Below are positions 865-63,680 of a stretch of DNA of 64,000 nucleotides, in pieces. This stretch comes from Heterotrichella gracilis. Taxonomy: Eukaryota > Sar > Xanthophyceae > Tribonematales > Xanthonemataceae. Positions within the stretch are counted from its first letter, which is position 1. The number at the start of each line of letters is the position of its first letter. Under the pieces are notes generated by a model, which saw only the letters and a list, made by a program, of their open reading frames with translations, did not search any database and was not told the DNA's origin. The stretch is from assembly GCA_032358255.1 (NCBI GenBank), contig JAULBX010011878.1, positions 40,655 through 104,654 of the forward strand, given 5' to 3'. Made by a program: the position numbers and the translations under genes.

Positions 865-3800
865 CTAAGCTGGGCTTTTCACCCTGTCCCCTTGCACCTG
901 CTCCACCAGCTCCTCCACAGTGTCATACTCTGCACACATACACTCCAGCGCAGAGGGGGTCATGACGCCGGGGGTGAATGCGCATGCGAATGCCTCCAGG
1001 CAGCCAGGTGTCAGCTCCTGGTTGTCCGCCTGGCAGGGGAGGAAAGGGGGGAGTGTAAGGCATGCACCGCGCGTGGAGGTGGGGGGTGCGGGGGGTATGG
1101 AGGAGGAAGGTGCAGGACGCGTGTGTGTGAAGGAGAGCGGGCATGCAGTAATTCACTCGATACCGGTGGATGTAGTGTTCTGATACCAGAATTTATGAGC
1201 TCGCTCACATACGCAGAGTATATAGGGATGCCTAACAGTAGCCCTAAACTCTGTGATGGCATCCCAGCCGCTTATGGCTCCTCACCTGGAAGTAGTGCCT
1301 ATTCATTTCAAAGGCCTCAATGCGCAAACATATAGAGTGAAGGGTTTATGTGTTAGGATGTAGGGTTTCGGCTGTGCTCACCTGGAAGTAGTGCTTGACC
1401 ATATCGAGGGCCTCCTCCAGGCGCAGGTGCCCCAGGTACAGGGTCTTGTTGATGCGCCCAGGACGGATGAGGGCGGGGTCAAGCTTGTCGGGGTGATTGG
1501 AGGTCATGATCTGAGAAACGGGGAGGGGGAAGGGGTTAGGGGGGGAATGGCCACAAAAAGGAACAAGAGATAGGAGGCAGTGGGGATGGTTGAAGCTGCA
1601 CAGCGCTGCCTAACAAGCTGAATGTCTCCACCTTTGAAGATCAGACACATGCGATGGCCATACTGAGGTCAGCCATACTGAGGCATGACGTGTTGTATTA
1701 AGAGTTTAGGCTCAAGACAATTGGATCATGTCCACATGATTCAAGTGATCACCACAATGCGTTCAGATGCACTACACCACCCCATCCAGCACAATCAAAG
1801 GAGGGTTATGTACAATGAAGCCAGATCATGTCACATGATTCCCGCGCACACACTCACTATATAATATGACCCACCACAGTGCGTTCGGCGAGTCCACCGT
1901 CCCATCCAGCACACTCAGATCATGTGGAATGGCCTCAGATCATGTGCAACCATGCAGATTGGTCATTGAAATGATCAATTGACTCACCACGATGCGCTCG
2001 GGCGTGTCCACCACCCCATCCAGCACGTTCAGCAGTCCAGCCAGATTGAGCTGATCATCGGGCTCGTCAAATAGGCCCATGCCCTTCAACTTGGGCCCAA
2101 ATGTGCCCTTCTTGGGGACCCGGTCGGGGGTGGAGGTGCTGGTGGCCTGTGGGGGGTGGGGGATGTTGGAGGCAGGAATGGTGGTGGGGCGGTGCGTGTG
2201 GTGGAAGAAGGGTGGAAAAGGGGATGGTGATATCATGTCGGAGTGCAAGGCGGTATTACTGGGGTGCAAACATATGCCACTCCCTGACACAGCCAGTTCC
2301 AAACCTGGAGAGACATGAAAGAGCAACAGGCCCCCTATATTCCTGCGGCGTACAAGCACCTTTTTAGCTCCACACACCATTCGAAGGGATTAACATGGTA
2401 CCACCACCCACCTGCACCTCCCCGTCCTTGTCTTCCTCCCCCTCCCCCTTCCCCTCCTCCTCCTCGTCGCTTTCATCCTCCTCCTCCCCTTTCTCCTTGG
2501 CCCGCTGCTTGGCTGTCATGCGCACCATGTGCCACAGCTGGCGGGAGGCGGAGGCAGAGGAGGGAGCACCGGAGGAGGACTGGCCCTCACGCTTGAGGAC
2601 CACGTCGCTGGCGGCATCAATGTCCTCCTGGGAATGGGGAGATTAGCCAGTCAAATAGTTACATGCATTCAAGCATTACAGACAGATTAGCAGTCAGTCT
2701 TGCATATGCGGCGCCATGCAGCCCTTTCCTTGTAAGTACTGTTTGAACCACCTATTGATCCCACCCGACTTGAGGTCCTTTCTGGGTAAGGGAGATATGG
2801 ACAATTAAAACTCCCATACAATTGGGCGCGTTTGAATTAAAAGCAGGTGGCGGGGAGTGGAGGAGGAGCACCCACATCCTGAATTGGTCACATCCTGATT
2901 TGACCACCCCATATCACACGGCCTTGACATCCCCATACCACTATTTATGATCCTCACCATGACAAAGATGGTTTTCTTGAATGGCGTGGCCACCACCACG
3001 TCCTCCTCCTCCACGTTCACTGTGCGCGCAAACATGATCTCCATAAGCTCCTGGTTGGTCTTGATGCGCGCAAGAGGGACGTTCACGATGTTGCGACCCG
3101 TGTAGGTGGCAAGGGCCTGCACGGAGGGGGTATATGGGTTCAGGGTTTAGGGTTTAGGGGTCGAGGTTATGGTTATAGTTAGGGACAGGATTTGGGCTGC
3201 AGGGAGGCGGGGATGGGGGGATGCGTGGTGCGCAAGGGGCACGTTCACGATGTTGCGCACGGCGTAGGTGGCTAGGGATGCAAGTGGGGCGCACGGGGTT
3301 GAGGGAGGTTTTAGGATTGGGGCTTAAGGAGGGAAGGGGAGTGAGAGGGTTGGTGGTGGCTGGTGACAGCGAAGGTCCATGCTGGTGAATGCCCTTGCCA
3401 CAAACATTCATGAGCGGATGTAGGCTTCACAATTAGGGTTTGGAAGGCACGCACTGAATGACCTAGGTGGATAGCTTAGGAGGGGACATGTGTGGCACAT
3501 GCTTGCAATTACAATGGGTCCATCCACATACACCCTATGCTAGGGTCTTCCAGGGTTTCAGCACCAGCGCAACCGCAACCCCCACCTTGATGAAGGAGGT
3601 TTTGCCTGTGCCTGGGGGCCCGTGCAGCAGCAGGCCCAGCTTGTGGGGGTAGCCGGGGATGGCAAATTTCCCGGATTTTGTGCTGAATTTGTCCACCAGG
3701 CGCAGGATGGCCTCCTTCTCAGGGTGGAAAAAGGATGCGAAGGTTTTCTCCCCTGACAGCTCGTAGCGCTTGTACAGCACCTGGCCTGCCTTGCCGGTCT

Positions 3801-5965
3801 CCCCCTCCACGTACTTGAGGGGCATGTATAGGTGGCTGCAGGGGTGGGAAGGGTGGGCATGACAAAATGCGATAAGCTAGACAATCTGCATGCCCATTAC
3901 ATATGAAGTTTTGGGGTGAGCGGCGGTGGTGTGAAGGTGGCATGTGGCAATCTTGAGGGGCATGTACAGGCGGCTGCAGGGCGTGTGTGTGTGGTGGTGG
4001 GAACGTGGCACGTGGCGATGGGCGAGGGCAGCAGTACATTAATATACTTCAGAGTGGTACATGCGTTAGTAAATTGGTGTAACCCTGGTGAGGGCCTCAT
4101 GGGGGTTGTGCCAAGCATGCGTGCAGGGAAGGTTGGCAGGGTGTGCACGGCAGTCATCCATTTGGAACGAGTTATGGACCATCAGAACGCACCGCAGCAC
4201 GCTGTTTTGCATGCCATGTAGTCCAGCCTCACCCAGCCCCTCTCACAACCCCTAGGTGTTGAAAACCCCTCCCACATGAGACACCCTGTACCCTAGCTAG
4301 GGTTTCCACCCCTTCCAAACCGCCTACTCACCGCTTGTTGCCCGACACCTCCCCCAGCTTCTTGGCCCGATAATACTCAAACGCCTTCTGCACAAAATCG
4401 GCGATCAGGCGTTGGCCGTCGGGGAGGTCGCTCTGTAAGGTGAAGGAGGTGGTGACAGGGGTGTTGCCGCCGGTGGAGCGCGTCTCCCCAACCTCCACAA
4501 CCCTGCGATGCGCACATGGGGAATAGATTAAAATATAATGTAAAAGAATATATATAAACAATAATAAATAAATACAAATGTACTGGGATGGGACAGGTTT
4601 GGCATGTGCTCATTTGAACCCTGGCTGGCGAGTTGGCACCCGTAATCAATGGTGATAAGATAACAATAGGACTATTATTATCTTATTACCCTTGCCGTGA
4701 TGCCGCCAGCTTTGTATCCACCACATGCATCCCTGCTCAGAAATTACAGGGATGAATGACAGCCTCGACTCACGTGATGAACTTGAGCCCTGGCTGGACC
4801 TCCACCTGAACCCCCTTGGGTGGCGTGGTGGTGAGGCGGTACCGCTTCAGCTCACCCTGCTCGTGGCTGCATGGGGGGGGAAATAATGGGTTAATAGAAT
4901 ATAGCTAAGGGTGAATGCTATAAAAATACAACTACATAAAATATATGAGGAGGGGTAGATTGGCAGTCACTGCAGACATGATGCAAACCCTAGGTGAGGT
5001 TCGTGGCAGGTGGGTAGCGCTGGCAGTTGGGAGCAAGTTTAGGGTTTAGGGTTTAGGGTTTAGGGTTTAGGGTTTAGGGTTTGTCACCTTCAAACCCTAA
5101 ACTGCGCTGTTTTAGGGTTTAGGGTTTAGGGTTTAGGGTTTGAGCAAGCATGCATGTGGGTAAAAGAACGTATGCCCCGATGCATGGCACCTTTTGCATT
5201 GAGGTGCAAAGGAGTGTATAGAAATACCGGTGTCATACAGTGTTCGGGTTATGAGCGCTGGGCGGGGTTGTGGGCATCATGAGAACCGCCCAGCTCTGAC
5301 CACAAAACCCTACTTTAGGGTGATGACCACAGCATGCACAGCACACACTTAACAGGAGCAACTTGTGCACGGGCAGGGCCCACCCACCTGCGTCCATCGT
5401 CCTCGTCGTCGCTGTCCTCGCCTGCTGGCGCCGCCCCGTCAAAGTCGATCAGCGTCATGCCCCCGTCCCTGAACCTCTCAGTCACGCCCTCCAGCGAGTT
5501 GAGGTAGCACATGATGGCCTCCTGCAGGACCTTGTTCTTCCTTCCCTCCTACAGGGAGACAGTTACAAGCGGGTGAGGGGGCGGTGGGGTGGCGGCGGCG
5601 TGGCACGGGCAAGCACAAACCGTTCTGGCATGCCCAGGCATGTGGTGGGCGGAGCATGCATTGGTGCAGTACAAGTTCCATTTGGAGACACAGGCTAAGC
5701 AATGCTTGGGTTGGGTGGCGAAAAGCATTACAGCCCTTACCGGGTCCCAGTAATATCCGTTGTCGGTGTGTGAGATGACTCGCGTGCACATATTCTCTGC
5801 CTTCTTGCCAGTCCTCAGGTATTGCAGGGTGTCAAGCAGACGGGGCAGGAACTCTCGGACCAGCAGCGGCATCAGGAGGCAAAGGAGAACATCCAGGAGC
5901 ATGTGGCCAGTGCTTATCTTGTTCATCATACCAAACTGGGTGAGGATCTCGGGAGTAATCTCCAT
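865..5965 (-). CDS. BCS1-type AAA ATPase with N-terminal membrane anchor
   Basis: Ten exons (5741-5965, 5388-5548, 4774-4866, 4332-4502, 3586-3835, 2958-3116, 2412-2627, 1988-2146, 1382-1510, 865-1029) join in phase to 575 residues. A hydrophobic segment at about residues 22-45 is the likely membrane anchor. Walker A is GPPGTGKT at about 289-296, Walker B is FVMEDID at about 351-357, a sensor-1 Asn lies in MTSNH, and LDPALIRPGRI is the typical AAA arginine region. The order (TM segment, BCS1-specific region, AAA core) matches mitochondrial BCS1 and plant BCS1-like ATPases. BCS1 itself moves folded Rieske protein across the inner membrane; plant relatives have other organelle roles, so the substrate here is not known. 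An acidic Glu/Asp/Lys-rich insert of about 50 residues follows Walker B. The start is the first ATG before the TM segment. Introns 5, 8 and 9, and the intron before exon 5, hold decayed exon-edge copies. Confidence 0.9.
1273..1324 (-). repeat. Exon-edge echo of BCS1-like exon 9
   Basis: This block repeats the 3' end of exon 9 and its donor site. The plus-strand motif tcacctggaagtagtgc occurs at the true junction (about 1378-1394) and again here, followed by a degenerate copy of the next 25 bases. It lies inside the intron and has no open continuation. Confidence 0.8.
1745..1916 (-). repeat. Two echoes of BCS1-like exon 8 donor end
   Basis: The end of exon 8 with its donor (true copy about 1979-2035) recurs at about 1866-1916 and 1745-1795. 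All three contain a form of tcaccac.a.gcg.tc followed by ccatccagcac. The copy nearest the exon is the better preserved one. Confidence 0.8.
2656..2780 (+). repeat. Interspersed repeat R1, copy 1
   Basis: About 120 bp with the shared core agattagcagtcagtcttgc. A close relative is at 36966-37085, a shorter one at about 50485-50545, and a more diverged one at about 39023-39110. All are in introns or beside exons. No coding potential or terminal repeats are clear, so the class is not known. Confidence 0.7.
3221..3295 (-). repeat. Echo of BCS1-like exon 6 acceptor end
   Basis: The 5' end of exon 6 (about 3068-3120) recurs here with the shared core cacgttcacgatgttgcg and a matching gtaggtggc. It lies on the intron side of the acceptor. 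A shorter echo of the exon 5 acceptor lies at about 3953-3985 (compare 3818-3850). Confidence 0.8.
4648..4693. mobile_element. 46-bp fold-back element, family member 1
   Basis: Imperfect inverted repeat of about 23 bp per arm, AT-rich, with GATAAGATAA on one arm and its complement on the other. The same element occurs as a perfect palindrome at 32609-32655. It is in the BCS1-like intron. The flanks CCGTAAT and CCGTGAT may be a decayed target duplication. Confidence 0.65.
5038..5141 (+). repeat. Interstitial TTTAGGG telomere-type tract
   Basis: Two runs of TTTAGGG units (about 5038-5082 and 5111-5141) are separated by a short inverted piece with aaaccctaaac. They lie inside the second intron of the BCS1-like gene. 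TTTAGGG is the telomere unit of many green algae and land plants. Confidence 0.95.
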
Positions 5966-8881: not shown

Positions 8882-11657
8882 TCAACCAATGGAGCCATTG
8901 CTTTTAGTGGTGGTCAATGCTTGCCACGACGGCACACAGGCTGCCAGGATGGCACACAGGCCCCAGCCACACACAATCACGCCCAACGCAACCTCAAACA
9001 CCGCACGCGCACCAAAGCGTTGGTACACAACCCCCCCTACCAGGCCCCCCGTCCCCGTCCCCACACCCCTGAACAAGCCCTGGAAAATGGACTGCGTAAA
9101 TGCTGCCAGGCCGGGGGGCGAAATCTGGCGGCATTTGAAGGTGCCCGCTGCCAGGCCAAACCCAAATGTCACCCCATGCAGCAGCTCTAGAGGCAGCACC
9201 ACCCAGGGGTTTCCAAAAATGTGTAGGATTGCGTACCCCCACAGGCGCACGCAATAGGCCCCCAGCACCAAATGCAGCATGTTCTCCACCCCTAGGCGCT
9301 TCAGAAATTTGTCGGCAAAGAAAAGAATGGGGACCTCCGCAATGCAGGTAAATGTGAGGGTCAGCCCCATGAGCGCCTCACTACCCCCCAGCTCGTCCAA
9401 ATACAGGAATAGGTACCCATCGATGACCCCCATGCCGAAACCCATCAGTACAGTCATTGCGAAAAAGGGGCAGTTTGCGGGGGTGAGCAGCCGAGTCATG
9501 CTTGACCACCCCTGGTGGGCTTCTCCCACGTGGCCCCCTTGGTCATTTTCCCCTGGCTGCTCCGCCACACCCAGGTGGGCATTTTTATGAGCCTCCTGCT
9601 CAAATCTAGGTGATGAGGGTGCAATAACCTGTGACCACACCACAGCCGCTCCCTCGCTGCTGCGCCTGCCAGACTGCGCATCTCTGATCGCCACCCCAAT
9701 GCTGCCAGCGGCTGGTCGATGATGCAGGGGGTCACCCAAATGCGCATCGCCCTCCTCCCCCCAGCTTGGCTCCAAATTCTCCCCTCCCAAATCCGCCGAT
9801 TTCCGCAAATCTGAAATGGCATCCCCACCTCCCTGCAGCTCAATTTCCCTCCCCATTTCCAGCCTCTGATACCTCCCCCCTTGGTGGCTCACCCCAGCAG
9901 GTGCCTTGCGCCCCGCCTTGAGGGCCTGGTAGGGTAATGCTAGGGTTGGCCAGAGCACCAGGAGCGACAGCATGGCATGCATCACAAATGCAACGTAGAT
10001 CCCAAACCGGTGCACCACAGCTCCAGCCACAAAGCTGAATGTGCCCCAGCCCACTGCGCCCCACAGGCGGTGCTTGCCATAGCTCCCCTCCTGCATGGTG
10101 GTAACAAACCTAGCTTAGGACTTTGAGACGTCCATCGGCAATGCACAGTACAAGCAATCAGTGTCGTTGCATCTTACACCAAGCCTTGAAAAGAAAAGAA
10201 TTCATAAACCACATGAGTGCCACAACCGTGAATGCAATCAAGATGCGCAGAGTATAATTCTCACTCCAATTGACCACGCAACGGCCTGTAAAAGACTGGA
10301 CCACCTGGCTGATGTGCACCACATGCAGCGCAACACAGAACAACGGGCAAAAATCGGGTGCCCCAATTATGGCCAAGGCCTGCTCCCACAGCATAAGGGC
10401 TGCTAAAAATTGCTTGTGCTAGCTGTAGGAACACACAGGCCTTACACATATATCAGTACCAGTCCAGAGAATGTACCAATTATGGATAACCTAGAGCTAT
10501 AGGTACAACAGTTTAGGATTTGTCAAGCACCTTGGCCGTGGCCGCCATCACCGCGGCATCCGTGAAGATGGTTGCCGGCGACTTGCACCCCTCCGCCACC
10601 ACCACCAGGCCCAGCAGCAGGGGGAAGGAGGAGGTGAGGGACAGGCAGGTGCGTGCAGCCAGGCTGGCGCAGAAGGTGGTCAGCAGGATGGCGCGGTGGG
10701 AGCAGGTGTGGTCCGCGAGGGCAGACCATGCGTTGCCTGCGCAGGGAAAATGGATGTTATCATGTTGACAATGGCATAGACGATGGCGAGTAATGATCAG
10801 GGTTTGACCGAATGTAAATGGAGGTTACTACAGGAGGTTGCCAGAAGGATTGGCGCAGTGGGAGCTGGTGTAACCAGTGAGGGCAGACCACGCGTTGCCT
10901 GCGCGAATGAAATGGGTGGATCATGGTGTGGGTCATGTCACATGATTCATGTCACATGCATCACGTGTAATGAGCATGGCACAAGAAGGCCAACAGGATG
11001 GCGTGTACTGATCAAATTTTGATTGCATGTAAGATGGAGGTCATTACACAACAAAACCAGCAGGATGGCGCGGTGGGACCTGGCGTGGTCCGCAAGGGCA
11101 GACCAGGCGTTGCCTGCGCACGCGAAGTGGGTGAATCATGTGTGATAAGGATGGCACGGTGGGAACATGATGTGGTAATTAGTAGGTATGGCGCGTGATA
11201 TTTGATGTTGGCCGGAGGCGTAGCCCACATGCTACCTGTGCATGCGTTTTGGGTTGAATTACCATTGTCTTGTGCAATAAAAATATCTTGAGAACGAACT
11301 AAGCGTCCTGTGCAATGATGATTGCACTGCACGCTATATTAACTGCTGATGGCGTTGCACACCCTGCACTAACTAGAGAAACCGCCAGCGTACTCCTGTG
11401 CGTACTGCACACCCTCCACTAACTTAAGAAACTGCCAGCGTACTCATATGAGTACTTCAATTTTCATGCGATCATTGATTACCGGTACATACAGTATTGC
11501 AGATAAATCCTAGGCAGGTACCTGTTATTGCTGAAACCCAGGGCCTGATCGCTGCCAGTGCGCCGATGTGTGCCTCATCCAGTCCCAGGCGGCGGTAATA
11601 CAGGTTGATGAAGGGGAGGAGGCACACTTGGGACGAGAAGTAGGTGGCGTACCACAC
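8882..11657 (-). CDS. MFSD6-like major facilitator transporter (5' partial)
   Basis: Three exons (11522-11657, 10531-10736, 8882-10090) join in phase to 516 residues. The N-terminal part has LPFINLYYRRLGLDEAHIG, then IRPWVSAITG followed by NAWSALADH, the layout of the MFS_1-like (MFSD6) family, in which an Ala-Asp pair lies in the loop between TM2 and TM3. YGKHRLWGAVGWG starts the TM5 region. A long hydrophilic loop of about 150 residues separates two groups of membrane segments. The C-terminal half has about six more segments, with the family-like stretch LPLELLHGVTFGFGLAAGTF. Substrate is unknown. No ATG is in frame before 11657, so a short first exon further upstream is missing from this model. 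The donor after exon 2 is GTGCTT, which is weak. Exon 2 acceptor copies fill the intron before it. Confidence 0.83.
10829..11175 (-). repeat. Echoes of MFS exon 2 acceptor end
   Basis: The exon 2 start (true copy about 10673-10745) recurs at about 10834-10905 and 11053-11125, with partial pieces near 10985 and 11148. The shared plus-strand core is gagggcagacca.gcgttgc or a close variant, preceded by a form of aggatggcgcggtggga. Units are spaced about 160-220 bases. Confidence 0.85.
11340..11450 (+). repeat. Two-unit tandem repeat of about 58 bp
   Basis: The sequence gcacaccctgcactaact, then gaaaccgccagcgtactc, is repeated with a few changes (gcacaccctccactaactt, then gaaactgccagcgtactca). 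It lies in the first MFS intron and is not an exon copy that can be recognised. Confidence 0.75.
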
Positions 11658-28373: not shown

Positions 28374-28379
28374 GACAAC

Positions 28380-37700: not shown

Positions 37701-40700
37701 TCTACCTCATGAACAAGACAAGTTTTGCACTTGAACCGCCACCTAAAGGTTACCTGCCTGTTCAAGCGGTTGAGAGGGTGGGATGGCGATTTGGGTGGCG
37801 ATTTCAAGCGCTTACTCTTGTTCACCAGTTAGCTTCCCTTGTTCATCAGGAGGGTGCGACCTTGCAGAGCGGTTTTATGGGCTACAAAGGCGGCTTTGGA
37901 ATCTACAAGATTTGAGTGAATTTCCCTGGATGTCTGGCGTGAACTGCATCCAACCCCCTTACAATTTTGCCGCCCGCCACCAGCATCGATGGTCCTGATT
38001 CAGCACGACATTGACCTTGCATGCAGAACGAGAAAAGAATGCACAACAGCCTTCATCCCAAACCCAAAGTGCAAACTTCAAAACTGTGCCCCGTTCAACT
38101 CCAGAGGGGCATAATAAACTCCACTCACTGGCTGCCGAGTTGCCGTGCGCCACCAGCCTCAGCCACTGGTGCAGCAGCGCGTTGACCTCAGCAGGGCGGG
38201 GGAACTTGGGTGCGGTGCCAAAGCCGCCCCTCCTGGCATCAAACCTCGAAGACAGCATGCGAGTGCAACCGTCGAGCGCGGTGAGCGCAAGGGCGCCCAC
38301 CGCGCTGGCGTCGCCGCCTGCGGGCAGAAGTGGGGTCACTTGGGTGTGCGCGGGATGGTGGGGTGTGGGGGTTACGCGAGTGCAGTGCGCGGATGCGGTG
38401 TGGAGTTCACCCTCCCTAAAGCCTGAGCCCTAAATAGCATGTGGTTGCATCCGTCGAGGGCGGTGCGGGCCAGGGCGCCCACCGCACTGGCATCGCCGCC
38501 TATGGTGTGTGGGGGGATGGATTTTACGGGGTGGAAGAAGTAGGGTGTGGGGTTGCAAGTGTGTGGCGCATGGGGTGCAGTGCGGAGTGGGGTTTTGGCT
38601 GCCCAGCCACGCACCAGTCCTTGCAGAGGAAGTGCGAGTGCTTTTGTCGAGGGCAGAAATGGCCACGGCCACTTGCACCCCAACGCTCACCTTTTGACTT
38701 TGTCAATTCCTCCAGCTGCTCTAATGATGCCGTCCTGCTCCATTACACCCTAAACCCTAAACCAGTACCCCCAAACCCTTGCCTTGAGGCTTTGTCACCT
38801 CCTCCAGCTGCGCCATGCTGTGATGATGATGTTCTGCAAAACCCTAAACCATGAACCCTAACTTACAACCCCCCATACCCTTACCCTTTGGCTTGGTCAC
38901 CTCCTCCAGCTGCGCCATGCTGTCCGCGCTCTGCTCCTTGATCTCAGCGTTCTTCTCGCGCCACACCTGCGCCACATTTTAGGGTTTAGGGTTTAGGTTG
39001 AGGGTCGCAAAGAAACATCCACAATTACTCATGCAGTTGCGCGCATTCCGGCAGTACGACCAGATCAGCATCCAGCCTTGGACACGTGTGCGCCGCGCAA
39101 TTAGAACCCAACACTGCTTATACCCATTACAAGGGTTTTTGTCCTCAAGCCGTGTGTAACGAGGACAGGCCACTGGGGTCCTGGGTGACCCCCTAGACCC
39201 TTGCCGCTGCGATGTACATAAATGACACAAATAATCTGCAAAAAGCCATTTTTGATTGCGTAATGATTGTGGGTTTTTCGCACTCCCATTGCCTGCGGAC
39301 CCAATGTCATGGGGCAGGAATAAGGCATCCAAGGGGTAAGGGTTTCATTCCAATTACCTGTGCCACCCTCCGCACCACTTTAAGTGAGGCTTGGCCTGGC
39401 CTGGCATGCATGCGATGGTGCGGCAAGTAGCTCATGAAGGGTTTAGGGTTTTAGCCTGCACTCCCATTACCTGCGCCACCCTCTTCAGCACTGTGGTGAA
39501 GCCTGGCCTGCCGTGCATGTCATGTGGCGGGAAATATGTGCCCCCCAGGAATGGCTGCAGCTGGGGGGTGAGGAACACACTCATGGGCCAGCCGCCACCG
39601 CCCTGGGTGGCCTGGACGTAGGTCATCTGCACAGAGGGCATACTCACTGAGTTAGGGTTTTGGAGTCAAGTATTTGGGCATGGTTTTACAAACATCAATG
39701 GCTCTGTTGGTCAACAATTTTATTTTTTACTTTTTGGATTTTTCACTGCATACATCGATGCCGTTAAATTGCTTTCAGAGGATAATGGGCGTGCACTGCA
39801 TTAGCGCTTGCAAAGAGTTTGGGGTGTTTCCACTCACATAGACCTTGTCCACGTCCGGCCTCTCCTCCCTGTCCACCCCTGGGACCCTAAACCATGCCTG
39901 AAACCCTAAATCCTGTGTTAGGGGTGAGCCCAGCATGTCAATTATTTCCCCTTACGTAGACCTTGTCCACGTCCTGCCTCTCCTCCCTGTCCACCTCGAG
40001 ACCCTAACCATGCCTAAAACCCTAAACCCCATGGTAGGGTATGCCCAGGGTTTCGAGGGTTTCCCACTCACATAGACCTTGTCCACGTCCGGCCTCTCCT
40101 CCCTGTCCACCTTGACGTTGACGTAGCTCTGGTTCATCAGCGCAGCAACCTCCTCACTCTCAAAGCTCTCACGTTCCATCACGTGGCACCTGGAGCGGGG
40201 CACAAGCGGGTGTCGAGGGTGAGGTAGGGTATTGCATGGGGCATGTGGTGCGCTTTAGGGTTTTGGTCAGGTGGTTATAAGGGTTGCTAGGGTTCACGAG
40301 GGCGGCAGCCTGCTGTACGAAAGCTCTTGAGATCATGCGTCTTCACGAGGCGCCTGGTAGGGGCGCAGCGGGGTTCATGCAACCATTCCATGGACCATGC
40401 CACCCATGCTCACTACGTTTTGTGGGCTGTTGACGTGCATCGTATTTTGGTGCCAGGGAACTAGCTGTGGGCACGCACAAGTGATACCATTGCTCATAAA
40501 ATTGGGTGGGTTGATATCGTGCAGGGGACTAGCTGTGGTTTGAGGTGGTGCCAGGGACACCCACCAGTGGCACGTGGAGTACCCCACCGACAGGAATATT
40601 GGCTTGTCCTCCTTGCGAGCCTTCTCAAAAGCCTCCTCTCCCCAGGGGTACCAGTCCACCTGCATGGGACACCCACCACTGCTATCACAGGCCACTACCA

Positions 40701-42232: not shown

Positions 42233-45200
42233 ATGACGAGGGGATCAGGCGTACGATACCATGGCCTTGTGCTGTGTTCCCTGCTATTGCTCAGCACTGG
42301 ACCGTTGCAAGGTAAGAGTCAGTGCCCTTGCATTGCCCTACAGTACATGTGGTCTACTTGCCATCATAAAGCGTTGTCTACACCAACGTGCACCCCTGCC
42401 TGGCATTGCCCTACAGTACATGTGGGTCTACTTGCCTTTAATCGAAGTGCAGCTACATCAACCTACCCCCCCTGTCCTGTATGAATATCACGTGCGGCGA
42501 GGTTCCAGTCTAGACTGCAGATCCCTCCCTTTGGATAGCACAAAGCGCCTCACCAGAGGCTTTCCACCAGCACCACCAAACCCTCCTTGGCCTAAACCCT
42601 GAACCTTTGCTCCTCGTCACTTCTTCCCCACAGCGCCCTGGACCACTGCATTGGCGCACTTTACGCACTCAGGGGGCACTCTGGCCACAACTACCACCCT
42701 CTGCCCTAAACCCTAAAAACAAAGCCCTCTCCCACGCAGGCACCCTGGGCCAGAGCATTAGCGCCCTGCTGGACAGCTCCTTCTGCCCTAAACCCTAAAC
42801 CCTAAAAACAAGTTTTCCTCCCCCGCAGGCGCCTTGGGCCAGAGCATTAGCGCCCTGCTAGACAGCTCCCTAGCCAACGCCCACACCGCCCGTCCCACCT
42901 CCCCCCCACCCGCCACCTTCGTCAATCCCAACACCAACACGCCCACCGCACCAACCAACCCCGGCGGCCAGACCAACAGCGCCCAGTTCGAACAAGACGC
43001 GGGCATCCAGGGCTCTGGCTTCGGCCAGGTGGATTTCACCCCCGTTATAGCAGACACCCCTGCGCCGGCACCAGCACCAGTACCAGCACCAGCCTCCCCA
43101 CCCCCCGTCATTGGTGCAGCGGCGTTGCTTGGGGGGCTCCCCACCATCACACCCGTGGCGGCTGCATCGCCCCCCCCACTGGTGGTGGCTGCCCCAGTGG
43201 TTACCCCAAAACCTGTGGTGGCAACACCTGTGGTGGTACCTCTCTCCCCCCCCGCTGCCCAAGTGCCTGTGCCCACCCCAGTAAAGGCGGTCCCCACCCC
43301 AATCAACGCGGTCCCCACCCCAGTGAAGGCAGTTCCCACCCCAGCGATCCTGTTGTCTTCCCCTCCCCCCGTCATCATTACCCTAATGCCCACCACGCCA
43401 AACCCTATTGCGGTCCCTGCGGCCAAACCCCTGCCGATCCCAGCCACAGCCACCCCCCCGCCCACCACCATCCAGCCCGCGCCAGTACCCACCAAGGTCC
43501 CCCCCACAATACCCACAACACAGCCGGTGCCCAAGCCAGCGCCAGTGCCGGTGGTGGCGGGGACACCCCCCCCAAAGATTGTGCCAGCGCCAGTGGTGAA
43601 GCCAGCACCAGTAGTGGTGCAACCAGCCCCCCCACCAGTGCTGGTGGTGGCGCCCGCCAAACCGGTGGTGGTGCCGGTACCTACCAAGCCAGTAGTGGTG
43701 ACGGCACCCCCACCCGCCATGCTGCCAGGTACGTGAAAACCCTAGTTTAGGGTTGTAACCAATGCTTTTGATGCGCTCGTAACTTATTGCATCCATGCAC
43801 CTGCTTACATCCCTGCCGTACCATACCCTATGATAGGGCAACGCCCCACGCTGTCATACCTACTGGAGCCTGCCCCAACGTGCATTCCCTGGTAATATAA
43901 TGCATATCACTCCCCCTAAACCCACCCATCCATCCTCTGCCAACGCACCTACCATCCTCCCTGACCCCCCCGTCCCTCCCCAGTCGCAGCCCCCACCCCA
44001 GCACCCTCCCTTGGCGCCATCTTTGCACCCACCACCGTCCCCGCCATGGGCGAGGCACCTGCACCGGCACCAGTTGAGGAGTGGTGGGCGCCTGTGGAGG
44101 CACCAGCACCAGCACCAGCCGCTGATCAAGGTGGGTGGGTGGGGTGCGGTTGCTACAGGGATCGGCCCGAAATCAATTTGGCCCCTGCGGGAATCCGGAA
44201 TCAAAAATAAAATTAATATTATTATTTAATTTTGGGGATTCCGGTAAATTCGTATTCCGGGCCGATCCCTGGCGATTGCTGCAGGGGATGGGGACGAGAT
44301 TGGTACATGTATGCTCAGGGTGTATGCCAGGGGTGTATTTGTGTGGACATGGCTGGCATTTTGGGGGCAATCTGTTCGAATCCGATCGCCCATTGCAGTG
44401 TCAGCCAATGACAGTCCCCCACTTTCTTGCTGGAGGCTCAAATTCAGCAGGGTTTGGGGTTTGATGCCACAAAGTACTCAAGCCATCAGGTTTCATCAAA
44501 ACCAGAAGCTCGCTACACTGCGCGAACCCTAATGGGGGTCATACCCTTAACTGAGGTTTCTTCCTGCACACACCCTATGCACTGGTGTCGCCACCCTCCT
44601 CGTATCCATGTGCCTCATTGGCCTTTTCAACACACTGTTAAAAAATACCAGACCCTAATCTAGGGGTTTTCCCCCACCCCTGCAGGCCCTGGCGACGCCA
44701 CCCTGCTGACCTCCATGCGCCTCATTGGCGGAGGCCTATACCCCTTCGGTCAGGTGGCATCCAACCAGCTGGAGGGTGCCATTGCAGCCAGCATGCCAAA
44801 CGTGACAATCAACGCATTTGGGGTCATCCAAGCCAAGGTAGGGGTAGAGGTGGTGGACAGCTAAGGTTTTCGATGCATGAGGGGTCACCAGGCATATGTA
44901 TGGTGATGGGTGTAGGTTAGGGTGCGCAGCAAGGGTGTGCACCGCATTTGATGTCATCCAGATTCCAGTACCTGGTAACGGATAGTGTATTACGGTAGCT
45001 TCAAGCGCATTCAAGACTGACCGCAATGACCAAGACCCTTGTCCAGGGTGGAAAATGACCATGTAACACATGACAAGCATGGGCTTTTGATCACCTGAAC
45101 AGTCCTGCACCACACCCTACCCATGCACCGCCTCCCACCCGCAGAACTACATCATCGGCGGCGGCCTGAACCGGCGCCTGGCTGCCGCCAGCGGGTCTGC

Positions 45201-48803: not shown

Positions 48804-50196
48804 GCAGGGGAGGGAAAATGGAGCATTTCAGGGGGAGCATAAATCAAGCATTGTATTCCCCTGGACATTGCATGGAGCCTGGAGGATGGTTGCGCAAAGG
48901 GGACTATGGAAAGGGACTGGTTGCGCAAAGGGGAGGGAAATGGGGAGCACCCGGAATGCCTACATTCGCTTGAAGACACCCTCGGAGTGAGGGTTGCTGG
49001 CCGGCACCATCCCTCAAGGGCAAGGCATACCTCAAAGGCAGCCTTTGGGGGGCCTCAACAGGGGCCGGATTTAGGGTTAGGTTTCAAGACAGGGAACACT
49101 GATGGGAACACTGATGCAAACATGTTTCATTGTGGACCCCTGGATGGGAGGGGGGCTATGCTGAGGTGACACATGTAGCGAATGTGTTAAGGGGATGTAG
49201 GAAACAGCCAAGTTGGCATATGCCCTTCAAACTCTGGCCACTCACGGCCCCACTGGTTGGCAACCTGGTTTGATATTGTAGTGACAATTTTTTGCAGCTG
49301 CGACACATTTCGTTCGTTTTTTTTACATTCCCATTGCCTACTCGAGTGCATACCATGCACTCCTGGCATCCATGCCCTGAAAGAGACTCCAGTGGAACGC
49401 TGCCCCCCCCCCTGTATCGGGATACCCAATATGCCTTGCACTGGCAGAGTGTGCGTTGAAGCTCACTACATTGTAGGCCTAAGTTGTCAACCTTCCTTCC
49501 ATCGATAGCCAAGAACTAGTACGATATGCTTTCAATTGCTAGATTAAATCGTTACAATGTGATGATGTCTTGGACCATGCAGTTTGTGGAAACTGCAAGA
49601 AAAGTATTACAAAATGCCCCCACCGCGAGGTGTGACAGTCATGAACAGACACTTGTACTTTTGACACGCAACCCTCAAGGGTCAGCCCTAGGTCTAACCT
49701 AATCAGCTGGCTAGCCCTAGGCTAGAGAGCAATGCATTCTGCACGTGAGATCTACCCTATTAAATTTTAGTTAAGTTGGCGGTGAAGGGGGAGGGGTCGA
49801 CCCGCAGGCTATGTGCTGTTACGTTTAATTTAAAAGCCCAAGCCAACAATTGAAAAAAAGAATTTGCTCAACACAAGCCTTGATAATGAATGAGGCTTGC
49901 CATAAACCTAGCAATCCGAAGCGGCTGCCCTACCATCCACATTTGATTCGCTCCCAAACCCTCGCTGATAACAGGCACTGGCCTCGCCCGGCGCAGGCCC
50001 AGGAAGTGATATTCTGTTCTATTCCACTACATTTCACTCTAATAGAAGTTTCATTCTCAACACTTCCAATATCACTCCATTGATCGCTGGGACCATTGTC
50101 ACTCGCATCCTTGCTTCAAATTCCAATGTGGACATTGATCAATCGACATCATCCATTGCGTCCAATTCCAATCTGGACATTGATCATGGACACTGA
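48804..50196. other. Convergent spacer between wall-protein and TAF13 genes
   Basis: Holds two 3'UTRs. TGTAA on the minus strand at 49552-49556 is about 640 bases past the TAF13 stop. A diverged copy of the wall-protein end (gggactggttg, then gcaaaggggaggg) lies near 48890-48945. No gene recognised. Confidence 0.5.
49552..49556 (-). promoter_or_regulatory. Candidate TGTAA poly(A) signal of TAF13
   Basis: TGTAA on the minus strand about 640 bases after the TAF13 stop codon. Confidence 0.35.
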
Positions 50197-53077
50197 TCAA
50201 TCGACGTCATCCATTGCTTCCAGCGCCTCCCCCTCTGCCGCAGCACCGGTTGGGCCCCCGCCCTCCCCACCCGCATCCGCTCCCCCCTCCTCCCCTCCCG
50301 CGCCCGCACCCCCCTCCACCCCCCCTGGTGCCCCAGTCTCCAGCAGCGCTGACTCATCAAATGTCTGCAACAGGAGGCAAGGGAGCCGTGTCAGGGTCAA
50401 CGCCACTCGGGAGAAAAAAATGCCAGTGCTCAGGGTATATGGGTTTGGCGGGCTTTTCATCATTGTTCTGTCATTCAATGTGAGGTTACATGCATTCCAG
50501 CGGTACAGCCGTATCAGCAATCACCCCTGCGCGAGCTTGCGCCACTCAGCCCTGGCGTGGTATTGCTCATACCCACCACCGTAAACCCTAGATTTTAAAT
50601 GTTTCCTAGTCCTCAGCTCCTAACGAGGGCAGCCCATGTGGCTCTGTGCTCTGTGCGATGTGCCAGGGTCTGCCATGCAATATCGACCTCTGGGAAAATG
50701 CTTGTTTGACATTTCTGCCCATGGTGCCTTGCATGCCCTCCCTGCTGAATGTTGCACACCTAGAATAACCCTCCCCCCTGTTGGTATTTCACATCACACT
50801 TCATTGACACCCCTCCCCTCCCCCTCCCCCTTGCTTCCTCACCTTCCTGAACTGCTTCAGCTGCTCATTCATGTGCAGCAGCTCGTGACAGCGGGCGTAC
50901 TTGCGGGGCTCCTGCGCACACGGATGGTTTTAGGGTGTTAGGGTTTCTATGGGGTTCAGGGTATTAGGGTTTTTGTTGAGGGTTTGTGCCCCATCTTGCG
51001 CACCAGCGGCATCAAGCTGTGTGCTGTTGGCTCACTGGTAAACCCTGCGTCATATGACGGTATTTATGGCTATATTTCGACTTTCAGGAAAAGAAGAGCA
51101 TAAGTGAGAAATCTACAAAACCGCGCCGAGGGTTTCGCCCAGGATTTGTGCACCCACCTTGCGCACGAGGACCATGAAGTCGTCGGCTGTGGGCTTGCCG
51201 GTGGCAGATGTCTCCACTGCCTGCTGAGTCAGACCACTCAGGTACTCCACGAGCACGTCCTACATCAACAGGTTTCCCACAACAACGTAAATTTAAATTA
51301 AGTGAAATAAATAACCTCCAGCTGTGTGACAGGTGGCAGGTGGAGAGGGGGTAGGGTGGATGCGTCCACAGCAGGGGTGGGGAGACTGGTGGGCGGCGGG
51401 TGGGGGCAGTGATGAAGTTACGCACCCAGGGACAAGCTATATCGATAAAAGATGTGGTACTGTTTATTTTACAATGGCTCAGCACCTGAGTTTGAGTTGA
51501 GTCTTGAGTTCAACTAAGCAAGGGGTCGCAGGTTCGAATCCTAAGGGTAGCGATATTTTTCGAATTTCCCTGAACTTTGCGACGGGATAAAATGGGGAGC
51601 ACGAAAGTGCGGTAAGCGGCACGACTGGTTGGCCACCATCTGCCACACTCGAAAGAGTGTCAGTTAAGCCTTGGCTCTAGGACTGGGGTGAGGCATACCC
51701 AGACATGCTAACCTGGCTTCGAAGCTGGAAACAAATACTTACTTACTTACTTACTGTTTATTTTACAATGCTAGTGGATAAGGCTGTGGTAAGTATTATA
51801 GTATTATCATCCGTATGGCAGGATCAAGGTTCTCTTGTGTCGTAACTGTGAATGGCAGGGCAGGAGAGGGTGGGGATGGTGGGGTTCTCGCGGGCGCAAT
51901 CTGCAGGGGTTTCCTGTAGGGTTTCCCTTACCTTCACCAGCCCCACTGTGTCCTTCCAGTGGCTGTTAGAGTTTGCATATAGGGTTTCTGAAAGGTTTCC
52001 ATGTAGGGTTTTCCCTTACCTCCACCAGCTCCACAGTCTCCTTCAGCGGCTGCTCAACGTCGCCAAAGCCATACAGCATGGGCCGCACTGCAAGGGAAAG
52101 AAACCTAGAGTCAGGCCTAAAACCTGTCCATGTCCAGTAGTTGAGCTGTGTGTGTAGGAGGTATATACTAAGTACCGCTTGGCGCCGGATGTGCAAGGTT
52201 GACTGCTGCTTACTGTGTTGCTGATGTGCATGTGGCTATTTGAAATGACTGTGGTGGTGTCAATGCTCCCCATACTGCAACTCAGAGCATAGGTTGGGGC
52301 GGTGTAGCAGTAAGGTGACGTTAGAAAACCCTAAAAACCTGACTTTTCAGGTTAACCTGTATGACCTCGACAGGTGCAGCAGCAAGGTTTAGGGTTTTGA
52401 ACTGGTGCATCATCACACACTGGCTGGCGTCGCCAAGGAGGCGTGTGCTGGGTATATAGTTAGGGTCTGGGGTATTAGGGCTGGAATGGTAGGGTTTAGG
52501 GTTTTGGGGTACGCACGGTCTCTCAGGAACAGGCCGCGTGCCTTGGTAGCCTGCGCCTTGGGCTCTGCTCGGGCTGCCTCGGGTATGGCTGGAGTCACAG
52601 GAAACGGGAAGACGTTGGTGCCGCAGAGGAGTGATGCTTGCCTTGTGCAAAGAATATGGCGCCAGCAGTATGCATGCGTTCAGGCGAACTTAACAGTGCG
52701 GGAATTCGGTTGTGGAGACAAAGCAGTAGTTGCAGCCATGTGGAAAGTGGTGTGTTTGGAAAACGTGTGCTTGCAATATGCATTTCCAACCTGGTAACCA
52801 GGTCAACCCATATGCATGCATATGCAAAATAGCGAGTTGCATGCCAAATTCATTGATTCACAGTGGTAGTCCCGCAAAATTTAATGCCAACAATCGTTTT
52901 ACCTCTCGTCTCCTCAGTCTTGGCCCTCTTCCCCCTCCCTTGACCGCCCCCCCCCTCGCCCCCTCGCCCCCTGCCCCCGCCCCTGCTGCCCCGCCCGCCC
53001 CTACTGCCCCGCCCCCCACGGGAGCCCCGCCCCCCTCTCCTTCCCCTCTCATGAGCGGCTGCTGGCGCAGCCTCCAT
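50197..53077 (-). CDS. TAF13: TFIID subunit TAF13 (histone fold)
   Basis: Six exons (52903-53077, 52517-52588, 52020-52087, 51158-51259, 50843-50911, 50197-50364) join in phase to 217 residues. The core reads LFLRDLRPMLYGFGD, then EDVLVEYLSGLTQQAVETS, then FMVLVRKEPRKYARCHELL and MNEQLKQFRKTFDES. This follows human TAF13 (SKELRCMMYGFGD, DLVIEF, RKDPRKFAR, MNEEL) along its whole histone fold. TAF13 pairs with TAF11 in TFIID, which binds core promoters for RNA polymerase II. The N-terminal 50 residues form an Arg-Gly repeat (RGGRGSRGG type) not known from animal or yeast TAF13, and the C-terminal tail is Gly/Glu-rich. Exon 2 is only 72 nt and its N-terminal boundary is the least certain. A SINE and an exon 3 echo lie in the third intron. 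Confidence 0.92.
51459..51770 (+). mobile_element. tRNA-derived SINE with 18-bp target duplication
   Basis: The element is 51477-51752 (276 bp). It has a Pol III B box GGTTCGAATCC at 51531-51541 near its 5' end, followed by a tRNA-like ggtagc end, a unique body and a 3' tail of ACTT units at 51736-51755. It is flanked by perfect 18-bp direct repeats ACTGTTTATTTTACAATG at 51459-51476 and 51753-51770. It sits in a TAF13 intron on the opposite strand. A truncated relative is at 45627-45703. An A box is not clear, and the partner LINE is not in the window. Confidence 0.93.
51920..51965 (-). repeat. Echo of TAF13 exon 3 donor end
   Basis: The exon 3 end (true copy about 52011-52054: tttcccttacctccaccagc, then tccac.gtctccttcagcggctg) recurs here as tttcccttaccttcaccagc, then cccactgtgtccttccagtggctg. 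The spacing is about 90 bases, with gtagggttt before each copy. Confidence 0.9.
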
Positions 53078-58991: not shown

Positions 58992-59019
58992 TTGCGGCAG
59001 GAGCGAGCCAGCTGTGGGC

Positions 59020-59165
59020 AGTTGTGCGGATCGCCAGGTGGCGATTCGCGTGGCGCATGTGGCCATGGTGGATGCCCGGGGCCCGCGCTGCAGGGGGATG
59101 GGCTGCGACTTACTACCCACTAGCAGGTGATCTTGGGTGCATGCTAGCGGGAGCGTATGCCGGGG
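59020..59165 (+). repeat. Decayed tandem copy of esterase exon 5
   Basis: The segment of about 140 bases matches 58815-58955: tggcgcatgtggcca against tggcgcacatggcca, then tggtggatgccc, cgctgcaggg.gatgggctgc, and gcatgctagcgggagcgtatg against acatgctggcgggagcgtatg. It is out of frame and contains stops. The true exon supplies the conserved His, so this copy is not needed. Confidence 0.9.
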
Positions 59166-59465
59166 GTGGTTGTGTCCGGGGAGGAGGAATGCTTGGGATA
59201 GCACGGGGGGAGTTGCATGGCTGGCTAGCTGCTTGTTAAAAGGTCATGGGGCCTTGGTGACGGGCACGCATAGTATTTGCCAAGATTTTTCCTTTTTGGC
59301 CCCTGAAATTGATTTCGGTTGGTCAGTTTGGACCGCGCGCAGCAACCCCACACTTCCAGTGTGTGTGTTGACCCCATCGGCATGGCCACATGTCTGGGAC
59401 CCAACCCCATGCGAGGGCTGAGAACCCTTACCAGCAACATGGCTCTTCGTTGAGAGACAAATCGA

Positions 59466-59470
59466 TGTAA
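59466..59470 (+). promoter_or_regulatory. Candidate TGTAA poly(A) signal of esterase gene
   Basis: TGTAA on the gene strand 475 bases after the stop codon. Confidence 0.35.
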
Positions 59471-61481: not shown

Positions 61482-63680
61482 TCAGCCCCCCCCCGCCAGC
61501 ACGCCCGCCAGCGCCGCCTGCGCCACATCCGCCAGCAGCTCAGCCAGGGGCTCCGCGGTGTCGGGCGCAAATTTTCGCGCAAATAGCGGGCAGGTGTGGT
61601 GCAGCGCCACGTAGGACCGCCACCTGGCGACGCACAGCGGCTCGGCCAGGGCGGCAACCACCTCAGGCTCGAGGCCCAGCTCCGATGCTGAGGAGCCCTG
61701 TGCTGGGTCGCTGGCGTTGGCCTGTAGTAGCCGCCGGTGGGCGGACGCCATGTGTTGTTGTTGGTGCTGTGGGGTTGGGTGTGTTTGGTGATCACGTGGG
61801 GGCGTAGCTTGGCCTTTTTGTGAGGCGCCTGGGCGATGTATTTCCCAGGGCTTGGTAGGGTTTTGGCTGGGATCTGGAAATCGGATGCTGCTGCTGTAGG
61901 TGTCGGCGGGAGACGATGCTGGGTGAGGGGCGTCGCTCGCCAGCAGAGCAGGCTGGAAAGGCGAGCCATGTGGCTGGAATGTGAACCCATGTCCCTCGCC
62001 ATGGCTTTGGCCCAAGGTGCCCTCACCCAGCAGCACCACATCGCCACCACCATCATCATATTGATCATGCTGCGCCACATCATGGCCATGCCGCGTGTGC
62101 TGCCCTGAGCTGTCACTGCCCGCATGCAGCTGACCACTGCTCAGCCTTCTGCCCGTGCCCATCCTGCTGTCCCACCCGCCCGTGCCACCATGCGCAGCCC
62201 CAACTCCAATCCCCAACAGACGCCGCCCGCCATCCCCATCCCCGTCCCCATCCGCATCCCCATCTCCACCCCCACCACCATCCGCATTCTCTTCCTCGAG
62301 AATTGGGACCCCCCCCTCCCCTCCCCCAAGGCCCCGCCTGGCCACATGGCCCGGACAGCCCTCACCCAGCATGTCTTCCAACGGCGTGCCGCCACCTGTC
62401 GCCTGCCTGAACATGCGCAGTGCTGACGTGGCGGCCCTGTCCGACGGACACCTGTCGCTATCTTCCCGCAGCCCTGCTAGGGTCTCGGGGTCAACCTGGT
62501 GGGCCCTGCAAGGTGGGGAGAACAGGAGGGGCATTAATCGCTAGAAGATTCTTCAATGTCAGTGTAATGATATATGCAGGATAAAAGTTCCGAACTTGGA
62601 TAGTTTTAAGTAAAGTAACTAATAAACAGAGTGGAATAACAGCAGCAAAAAAGCAACAATAGAATGATTATCCCTTACATGCACTTGACCACAAAATTTG
62701 AAACATGTGATTGCTCTTGTACCGCACTGACTTGTATTTATGTGACATGTTATACCACGTATTACGAGAACCTCACCCGTAGGTGGCGGGGTGCGCCGCG
62801 TTGGCCCGCCAGCGCACGTGCGTGATGGCACCCAGGCAGTCCGTCTGCCCCTCCAGCCCATACGCCGCCAGCAGCGTTGGCACATAGTGCTCGTCACTCA
62901 CGCAGAACCTGCGCGCGGGGCGGCCCTTGCGCCACTCGGGGTCCACCCAGCAATGGCGCGCAAAGGCGTCGTTGACGTGGGTGTCGGCGGCCGCCAGCAG
63001 TGCGTGGGGGCGGGTGAGCATGAACCACTGCTGGCTCTTGCGCCACATGGGGAGGGCCAGGCGGTGGGTGGCCATGGAGGGGTGCCACCTGGCAGGGGAT
63101 GGGAGGTGCGTGTTAGGTGGAGTGGGAGGTGGAATGGAGGGGGGGGGTGCGGGGTGAGCATGAACCACGGCTGGTTTGTGCGCCGCTTGGGAAGGGAAGG
63201 CAATGGGTGGCCATGGAGGGGTGCCACCTGGCGGGGTGTGGGAGGGGTGTGGGTGGATGGATGAGGGGGATGTGCCTGTTTGTTGAGGAATGCATACCTG
63301 ACATATGCAAACAAGCAAGATTGAGATATGGTCATTTGCCATACCAGTGTTGAGACAGAGCTGGTTGCCATGTATTACAGCCTGTCTAAACAATTTGCTG
63401 AACCAACGGAGTACATGTAACTATTTATACTGATAGGCCTGTGTGTCATACAGGTGTGCCTGTTTGTGCGAGGTACCGACCTGTATGACATGCGCTTGGC
63501 TCCGTCGCCTGGTTGGCTGTGGTTGGCGCACGCGTTGATGCGCGACCTCCCCTCGCTCATCGCCTGCATATATACCACCCCTGGCGGGTGCAGCGGTGTG
63601 CATGATTCTGATAGCAGCACCAGGCGGGCGGTAAAGGGGGAGGAAAGGGCGGAGCGAAGGAGCAGGCGCTCAGCCTCCAT
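61482..63680 (-). CDS. Core-2/I-branching glycosyltransferase, GT14 (5' partial)
   Basis: Three exons (63481-63680, 62777-63088, 61482-62505) join in phase to 511 residues. Matches to the family are AERLLLRSAL, then ARLVLLSESCTPLHPPGVVY, EGRSRINACA, MSYRWHPSM, WRKSQQWFMLTRPHA, SDEHYVPTLLAAYG, VRWRANAAHPATYG and, near the end, CPLFARKFAP. GT14 enzymes are type II Golgi membrane proteins that add branching sugars such as GlcNAc, or glucuronic acid in plants. The TM anchor and the N-terminal third of the catalytic domain are missing; they should lie to the right, beyond or within the poly-G run. A Gly/Asp/His-rich insert of about 250 residues separates HPATYG from CPLFARKF. The stop lies just after a run of nine C on the plus strand, so a one-base error would extend the C-terminus. 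Confidence 0.88.
63150..63240 (-). repeat. Echo of GT14 exon acceptor end
   Basis: The start of the middle exon (true copy about 63011-63103: gggtgagcatgaaccac, then gggtggccatggaggggtgc, then cacctggc) recurs here in the adjoining intron, about 138 bases upstream in gene sense, with the acceptor kept. Confidence 0.92.

Follow-up and report, generated by a model that had tools for sequence, protein, structure and literature searches.

Introns of the alga Heterotrichella gracilis contain decayed copies of the exon edges that flank them, and these introns lengthen through local duplications. The copies, here called echoes, were analysed in a stretch of 64,000 nucleotides (contig JAULBX010011878.1, positions 40,655 to 104,654; "the window") and in an independent sample of genes from the same assembly. 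With a probability of roughly 0.74, we consider echoes to be old, ordinary local tandem duplications, which come to notice at exon edges owing to the conservation of one copy there. The process is of a known kind and is unusually visible in this genome.

The window was searched by an ungapped diagonal scan and by a gapped tile scan, with three shuffled copies of the window as the control. The diagonal scan found 49 local direct duplications in the window, versus 0, 0 and 0 in the shuffled copies. Exons were taken from a list curated for ten genes (nine with counted, modelled introns, besides the MFS gene), picked from the output of a simple gene finder. A match of an exon edge within its own intron at a score of 90 or more was counted as an own-intron echo, with introns from other genes, and the own intron in reverse complement, as controls. 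Such echoes are present at 31 of 120 exon edges and in 24 of 60 window introns, as against 1.92 edges expected from the introns of other genes; the reverse complement of the own intron is matched by 5 of the 120 edges. The 31 edges are spread over seven genes (BCS1-like, G5, DUF255, G7, TFIID-18kDa, SASA and Branch). Two further copies belong to the MFS gene (Table 1) and stand outside this count, as the upstream exon is unmodelled. The window edge scan found no edge echo in the clathrin-adaptor and AP2 genes.

Two segments first called as DUF255 exons, 38691-38833 and 39838-39912, were rejected as exons because their translations read as echo copies instead. The edge, splice-site and codon-position counts for the window use the DUF255 model without them. 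The window part of the family, placement-density, gene-clustering, telomere-tract, boundary, exon-part-length, spacing-to-intron, intron-side-identity and high-identity GT/AG figures given below uses a model that still includes them as exons; the sample is unaffected.

The assembly around the window comprises 68.5 Mb in 903 contigs. From it, chaperonin, kinesin, kinase and HSP70 genes were assembled from exon-by-exon family matches and chosen regardless of echoes. Genes with several nearby matches were taken and most lone matches were dropped, including those on C409, C180, C331, C369, C897 and C476; the result was 78 genes with 191 gaps between matches. Sequence from 49 of these genes, with 146 gaps, was analysed. 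After exclusion of gaps longer than 1,500 bp or spanning more than 26 profile positions, 131 gaps were modelled, and 127 introns in 48 genes were retained. All the families sampled are strongly conserved, and the sample may therefore under-represent genes under weak constraint. The 131 modelled introns have the splice consensus CAG/GTGAGT at the donor and TGCAG/G at the acceptor, and a median length of 257 bp among the 115 best; at 92 of the 131 joins, residues are neither in surplus nor lost relative to the family profile.

Own-intron echoes are found at 20 of 254 edges in the sample, against an expectation of 1.46 and a single match in the reverse complement; slightly longer queries give 2.13 expected and 2 in the reverse complement. 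An echo is readable in 19 of the 127 introns (~15%). The initial annotation of the window had described at least 20 copied blocks, of both edge types, in eight unrelated genes, attributed them to repeated local duplication and decay, and named the lack of an excess over shuffled introns as one result that would count against it. An excess is present in window and sample alike, and the genes of the edge count together with MFS do number eight, so this part of the description is upheld.

Introns with an echo are also longer. In the sample their median is 427 bp versus 241 bp for echo-free introns (p=3e-8), and when the spacing between exon edge and echo is subtracted, the median becomes 222 bp. 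The growth of introns that the initial annotation had proposed is therefore seen in genes chosen without reference to echoes.

The arrangement of the copies was examined at 51 echo edges, 31 from the window and 20 from the sample. At 41 of these, the copy extends to within 1 bp of the junction, as expected of a duplicated unit that straddles it. Spacings range from 63 to 405 bp with a median of 134, and 48 of the 51 fall between 60 and 240. In the best-preserved echoes the homology crosses the junction and the aligned length is about equal to the spacing, which is a head-to-tail arrangement. Thus, in echo TC902+_3 the alignment continues over the splice site with 47 of 51 matches in the exon and 55 of 66 in the intron (spacing 122); HC55-_7 has 64 of 72 and 16 of 18 matches, respectively, over 90 aligned columns at a spacing of 92; and a third well-preserved echo has 73 of 85 and 61 of 82 at a spacing of 181. 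Tandem Repeats Finder (TRF) independently detects arrays at exon edges with units of 95 bp in 2.9 copies, 116 bp in 2.5 copies and 89 bp in 1.9 copies. Across echoes, identity in the intron half is 0.73-0.74 at 6-12 bp beyond the junction and 0.58-0.61 past 20 bp, against a background of 0.44-0.55. Stronger decay of the intron half than of the exon half is expected if both intron copies drift and only one of the exon copies does.

We therefore favour a simple scheme. A stretch of ~60-240 bp would be copied head-to-tail through an error of repair or replication, and the duplicate could persist in non-coding DNA or over a coding edge. If the unit spans an edge, the copy that preserves the protein would remain exon and the other would turn into intron. 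The intronic copy would then gradually lose its splice site and reading frame, leaving the intron longer by one unit. As the molecular step, either template switching or the filling-in and end joining of staggered breaks is most likely; this step, like the order in which the copies arose, is one that we infer. Exon edges would stand out for two reasons. With a median spacing of 134 bp, the units have roughly half the length of an intron (median ~255 bp), so that many overlap an edge, and selection keeps one of the two copies, so that the pair is recognizable for longer.

Another feature of these introns may bear on the molecular step. In 189 modelled introns, 5.7% of the bases belong to tracts of the telomere-type repeat TTTAGGG/CCCTAAA, compared with 0.12% in simulated introns. 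Coverage is 3.9% in sample introns, 8.3% in window introns and 1.1% in window intergenic DNA; in four pieces of DNA at arbitrary coordinates, introns included, it is 0.3-1.0%, and in 10 kb beside the window it is 4.4%. Examples in the window lie at 5037-5141, 26734-26906, 35986-36259 and 42704-42869. Genome-wide, the 16-mer TTTAGGGTTTAGGGTT has 3,695 exact occurrences, and the reversed 16-mer used as a control has none. On the sense strand of modelled introns, AAACCCTA is found 1.03 times per kb and TAGGGTTT 0.87 times per kb.

These tracts raise the possibility that echoes are scars of intronic double-strand breaks healed with telomeric repeats and filled-in ends, an explanation that overlaps with the local tandem duplications favoured above and names their molecular step. 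We regard it as rather unlikely in this specific form. Tracts are associated with echoes: in the sample they are present in 12 of 19 echo introns versus 17 of 108 others (p=4e-5), and in sample and window together in 4 of 6 echo introns versus 11 of 79 echo-free introns of 150-300 bp and in 16 of 20 versus 9 of 28 of 300-450 bp. At 17 of the 51 edges the copy boundary has a tract no more than 15 bp away, versus 8.4 for random positions in these introns (p=0.0015). Moreover, insertion of telomeric repeats at repaired breaks is known in mammals, where duplication accompanied interstitial repeats at 6 of 130 loci in rodents and 4 of 25 in primates (Nergadze et al. 2007, Table 1; PMC2246262). The mammalian repeats resemble those described here in that both are short intrachromosomal tracts of telomere type, a number of them accompanied by duplication (PMC2246262). 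They differ in that the tracts of H. gracilis are found mainly in introns and are often part of the duplicated unit itself. By inspection, the tract is present in both copies in about ten of the 17 boundary cases, which argues that it was part of the unit that was duplicated and not filler. The boundary association comes from 12 of 31 window edges but only 5 of 20 sample edges, and among introns of 450-800 bp the association with echoes is weak (10 of 15 versus 5 of 10). Echo-free introns of echo-bearing genes are tract-rich as well (16 of 48 versus 13 of 98, p=0.007), pointing to tolerance at the level of the gene.

The orientation of the tracts was considered as a sign of healing by telomerase, because TTTAGGG is more frequent in the donor half of introns and CCCTAAA in the acceptor half. 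This candidate was rejected: tract-free introns are likewise richer in G at their start and in C at their end, so that selection on splicing signals could explain the polarity. On the simplest reading, tracts and duplications are both scars of insertion, tolerated by one and the same set of genes. A shared repair event behind both is also possible. It is also conceivable, though in our judgment doubtful, that this lineage habitually repairs intron breaks by fill-in or telomere-linked end joining, leaving paired scars of a 60-240 bp tandem duplication and a short tract. If so, introns of weakly constrained genes would grow in the manner of a ratchet, and copies of splice sites would be a by-product that splicing must keep choosing against.

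A further alternative, which we find quite improbable, is that exon edges are preferred targets because a cause linked to transcription or splicing, such as R-loops, RNA-templated repair or paused spliceosomes, acts near junctions. Simulated ageing of duplications, with exons assumed to change at one fifth of the neutral rate, indicates that, integrated over age, the detectability of an edge-spanning duplication is 1.34 times that of a wholly non-coding one. Masked tile scans gave false positives in 4 of 3,271 and 17 of 4,655 tiles at the same score, and an unmasked check gave 0.105 per locus. In the window, the tile scan yields 34 edge, 4 exon-exon, 16 intergenic and 6 intron-only families, of which at least 2 of the 16 intergenic ones are the MFS echoes matching one another. 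In the window genes, the density at edges is 5.9-7.2 times the intron-only density after correction for detectability, as a preference would predict. With the window included, echo introns are also clustered by gene (p=0.0135), though weakly in the sample alone (p=0.07). The high ratio in the window looks like a consequence of the window having been picked for its richness. In the sample, there are 22 edge-spanning, 10 intron-only and 1 exon-exon families, with 0.8, 0.4 and 2.8 expected by chance. Per thousand possible placements, these correspond to densities of 0.97 for edges and 0.67 for intron-only duplications, and the corrected ratio is 1.08, or 1.22 if present intron lengths are used.

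Duplications away from edges are readily found. In the 22.5 kb of window intergenic DNA there are 9 families (0.40 per kb), and one 8-kb stretch accounts for seven. Four 8-kb pieces at arbitrary coordinates (32 kb) contain six non-coding duplications and one exon-exon pair yet no edge echo among their predicted exons, a set of predictions that, calibrated on the window, found 67 of 72 curated exons with only 64 of 103 predictions overlapping curated ones. The 10 kb beside the window contain three edge echoes, one non-coding duplication and one coding repeat array. The exon part of the echoes has no fixed end, ranging from 22 bp up to the searched 100 bp. Finally, the stop-codon edge of the last SASA exon is duplicated in the same way, though it lacks a splice site. 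The initial annotation had placed copies always on the intron side, a rule that fails at least in this case, where the copy runs across the stop codon into the 3' flank. Copying at a stop codon, together with intron-only and intergenic duplications of like spacing, gives no support to splice edges as the thing that is copied. The proposal that introns grow by copying of exon edges with their splice sites thus stands with respect to growth by local duplication. That exon edges or splice sites are singled out is not supported, and edges in the sample are hit about as geometry predicts.

Separately, intergenic duplications were noted at 13501-13752, 17111-17426 and 42326-42479, with spacings that resemble those of exon echoes. 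TRF reports a short tandem at 11356-11456.

Several observations weigh against old, ordinary tandem duplication as the full account. The sample ratio of 1.08 comes from 22 and 10 families, numbers at which a two-fold preference in either direction would escape detection, and the window ratio of 5.9-7.2 makes a local edge preference possible there. The reverse-complement control in the window, at 5 of 120 edges, is somewhat higher than chance. Because identity on the intron side is near background past 20 bp (0.58-0.61 against 0.47-0.55), we infer the tandem structure of most older copies. In one sample echo (TC395+_2, contig C395, intron 2), the exon part is identical at 54 of 56 positions and the intron part at 21 of 36, a combination that simple tandem duplication at such an age leaves unexplained. 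It may have come about by gene conversion, by a short templated insertion or by exchange of the intron part at a later time. The order of copies does not always fit either. For the tail of the DUF255 exon at 40072-40189, the farther copy (spacing 234) is identical over its aligned part and the nearer one is 89% identical over 55 bp, and of the two MFS echoes, too, the farther shows less decay (87% versus 79%). Order and age therefore disagree at times.

Echoes might instead be functional decoy or alternative splice sites under selection, which we consider very improbable. Among copies with an identity of 0.8 or more, GT is kept in 10 of 12 donor copies (9.0 expected), as selection might cause, but AG is kept in 6 of 10 acceptor copies of the same identity class (7.8 expected). 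Among all copies within 1 bp of the junction, retention is close to neutral for both GT (13 of 25; 16.1 expected from exon-part identity) and AG (10 of 16; 10.6 expected). The splice dinucleotide is thus kept in 23 of 41 such copies, and the earlier statement that copies keep GT or AG does not hold in general. A frame-breaking indel is present in 29 of the 51 copies. Mismatches between exon and copy number 177 of 1001, 159 of 1002 and 246 of 1010 at the first, second and third codon positions (.177/.159/.244), and the mild surplus at third positions most simply reflects synonymous changes in the exons. Retention of GT and AG, reading frame and codon-position counts give no sign that echoes are kept as decoy or alternative sites. 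Echoes appear to drift without constraint, decaying about neutrally, although younger echoes could be splice sites in use.

Neither do the echoes resemble two other classes of duplicated sequence. As copies of edges, with 29 of 51 frame-broken, they differ from whole-exon tandem duplications and mutually exclusive exons. They also differ from introner-type mobile introns in that 1.46 of 254 edges match introns of other genes, versus 20 that match their own, a comparison made without a genome-wide search for single-unit copy number. An artefact of assembly or gene modelling is scarcely credible. In its favour, the contig ends in a run of 74 G (63927-64000), which resembles a sequencing or assembly artefact of the sort met in some short-read assemblies, and two first-called DUF255 exons read as echoes. 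Against it, the divergence of copies from the parent exon reaches ~40% and their decay follows constraint, ten sample genes lie on different contigs, and the shuffled and other-gene controls are low.

Lengthening of introns without transposons is hard to see, since its scars decay; in this genome, conserved exon edges act as a memory of it. With ~15% of sampled introns readable, the rate of growth, the size of units and the competition between splice sites would become measurable with a sister genome and RNA sequencing. Gao and Lynch (2009, cited in PMC4974935) reportedly described segmental duplications within genes as common in eukaryotes, and that work is not known to have dealt with decayed exon-edge copies in algal introns. 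No report of such a density of echoes was found for an alga in the open-access literature searched, outside which most subscription journals lie.

A close known case is a potato RdRp gene, in which a tandem duplication over an intron-exon boundary resulted in a new intron (Ma, Lan and Niu 2016, PMC4974935). As in H. gracilis, the duplication spanned the boundary and copied the acceptor, the polypyrimidine tract and the start of the exon. In potato a new intron was formed, whereas here the extra copy is absorbed into an existing intron and decays, as seen in 19 of 127 sampled introns (PMC4974935). According to a 2012 review, tandem genomic duplication is the only proposed route of intron gain to have been demonstrated in vivo (PMC3443670). 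The Rogers model discussed there, in which a segment containing AGGT is duplicated, shares with the present case a local tandem duplication that doubles splice signals. However, the new intron in that model has the length of the unit, while the spacing here is shorter than the intron at 51 of 51 edges, so that the strict form of the model does not describe these echoes (PMC3443670). With respect to the tracts, telo boxes occur at 150.7 per Mb in Arabidopsis introns, with no excess over the genome (PMC3022908, Table 1). The telo boxes of Arabidopsis and rice resemble the tracts described above in that AAACCCTA is present in introns and elsewhere, the density in H. gracilis introns being the 1.03 per kb given above (PMC3022908). 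The part of PMC12633428 examined for telomeric repeats contains nothing on introns.

The genes that carry the features in Table 1 were identified as follows. Clathrin adaptor small chain, MFS, SASA and Branch genes were recognized by family match, and AAA, DUF255/Thioredox_DsbH and TFIID-18kDa genes by Pfam match; an AP2 match is below the cut-off. We take the AAA gene to be BCS1-like, from a motif, and the DUF255/Thioredox_DsbH gene is presumably SPATA20-like. A scan of gene G5 gave no Pfam match.

Table 1. Echoes of exon edges and related duplications in the window (window coordinates; percentages are identities)
Feature	Position	Strand	Details
Echo of 3' edge (with donor), BCS1-like exon 1382-1510	1281..1318	-	spacing 96, 82%
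Echo of 3' edge, BCS1-like exon 1988-2146	1867..1918	-	spacing 114, 81%
Further echo, 3' edge of BCS1-like exon 1988-2146	1736-1792	-	spacing 235, 79%
Echo of 5' edge, BCS1-like exon 2939-3116	3230..3277	-	spacing 162, 85%
Echo of 5' edge (with acceptor), BCS1-like exon 3586-3835	3952..3981	-	spacing 138, 93%
First echo of upstream edge, MFS exon 10531-10736 (parent block from 10689)	10851..10918	-	spacing 162, 79%
Second echo, same upstream edge of MFS exon 10531-10736	11058..11133	-	spacing 377, 87%; farther, better preserved
Echo of 3' edge, G5 exon 25964-26108	26223..26275	+	spacing 177, 74%
Echo of 5' edge, G5 exon 26649-26762	26450..26536	+	spacing 169, 80%
Tandem array from 3' edge of G5 exon 26649-26762; unit includes TTTAGGGTTTA	26734..26991	+	TRF 26734-26906, period 66, 2.7 copies; spacings 63-209
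Two echoes of 5' edge, DUF255/SPATA20-like exon 32292-32463	32557..32608, 32656-32703	-	spacings 165, 222
Echo of 3' edge, DUF255 exon 33217-33365	33023..33084	-	spacing 189, 84%
Echo of 3' edge, DUF255 exon 35199-35296	35075..35137	-	spacing 107, 86%
Head-to-tail array over 3' edge of DUF255 exon 36206-36364; TTTAGGG tract present	35986..36259	-	TRF period 95, 2.9 copies, 77%
Echo of 3' edge, DUF255 exon 36754-36911	36644..36689	-	spacing 86, 91%
Echo of 5' edge, DUF255 exon 36754-36911	37184..37264	-	spacing 342, 88%
Second echo, 5' edge of DUF255 exon 36754-36911	37367..37466	-	spacing 528, 82%
Echo of 5' edge, DUF255 exon 38129-38317	38436..38501	-	spacing 182, 85%
Probably two echoes of 3' edge, DUF255 exon 38885-38966	38678..38821	-	spacings 92, 102, 194; translation
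Echo of 3' edge, DUF255 exon 39471-39626	39346..39379	-	spacing 113, 82%
Head-to-tail array over 3' edge of DUF255 exon 40072-40189; CCCTAAA tracts in unit	39826..40112	-	TRF 116 bp, 2.5 copies, 83%
Tandem pair, 89 bp, over acceptor of G7 exon 42829-43028; TRF unit begins CCCTAAACCCTAAA	42697..42869	+	TRF 42704-42869, 1.9 copies, 88%; diagonal scan 85%
Echo of 5' edge, G7 exon 44686-44837	44579..44622	+	spacing 107, 80%
Copy at outer 3' edge of last modelled TFIID-18kDa exon 50197-50364	50129..50164	-	spacing 58, 92%; no modelled junction, outside edge counts
Echo of 3' edge, TFIID-18kDa exon 51158-51259	50990..51039	-	spacing 163, 72%
Echo of 3' edge, TFIID-18kDa exon 52020-52087	51919..51956	-	spacing 88, 87%
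Tandem copy of last SASA exon, stop codon and 3' flank (58801-59014)	59016..59231	+	alignment score 435; 214 bp, spacing 215
Echo of 5' edge, Branch-domain exon 62777-63112	63189..63251	-	spacing 139, 84%

Some further repeats were observed. A pair of direct repeats of ~300 bp, at 28547-28853 and 30393-30736, is 73% identical and 1.85 kb apart, and is possibly a dispersed element; the pair lies just downstream of a tRNA gene (28301-28374). On contig C120, one long predicted exon contains an array of repeats (~37.8-38.5 kb) set at several different distances, from 48 to 450 bp. Among the lone matches dropped from the sample, the Cpn60/HSP70 matches on C409, C180 and C331 lie in one or two long intronless pieces, unlike the other genes, and are possibly organelle-derived, retrocopied or from a bacterial contaminant.

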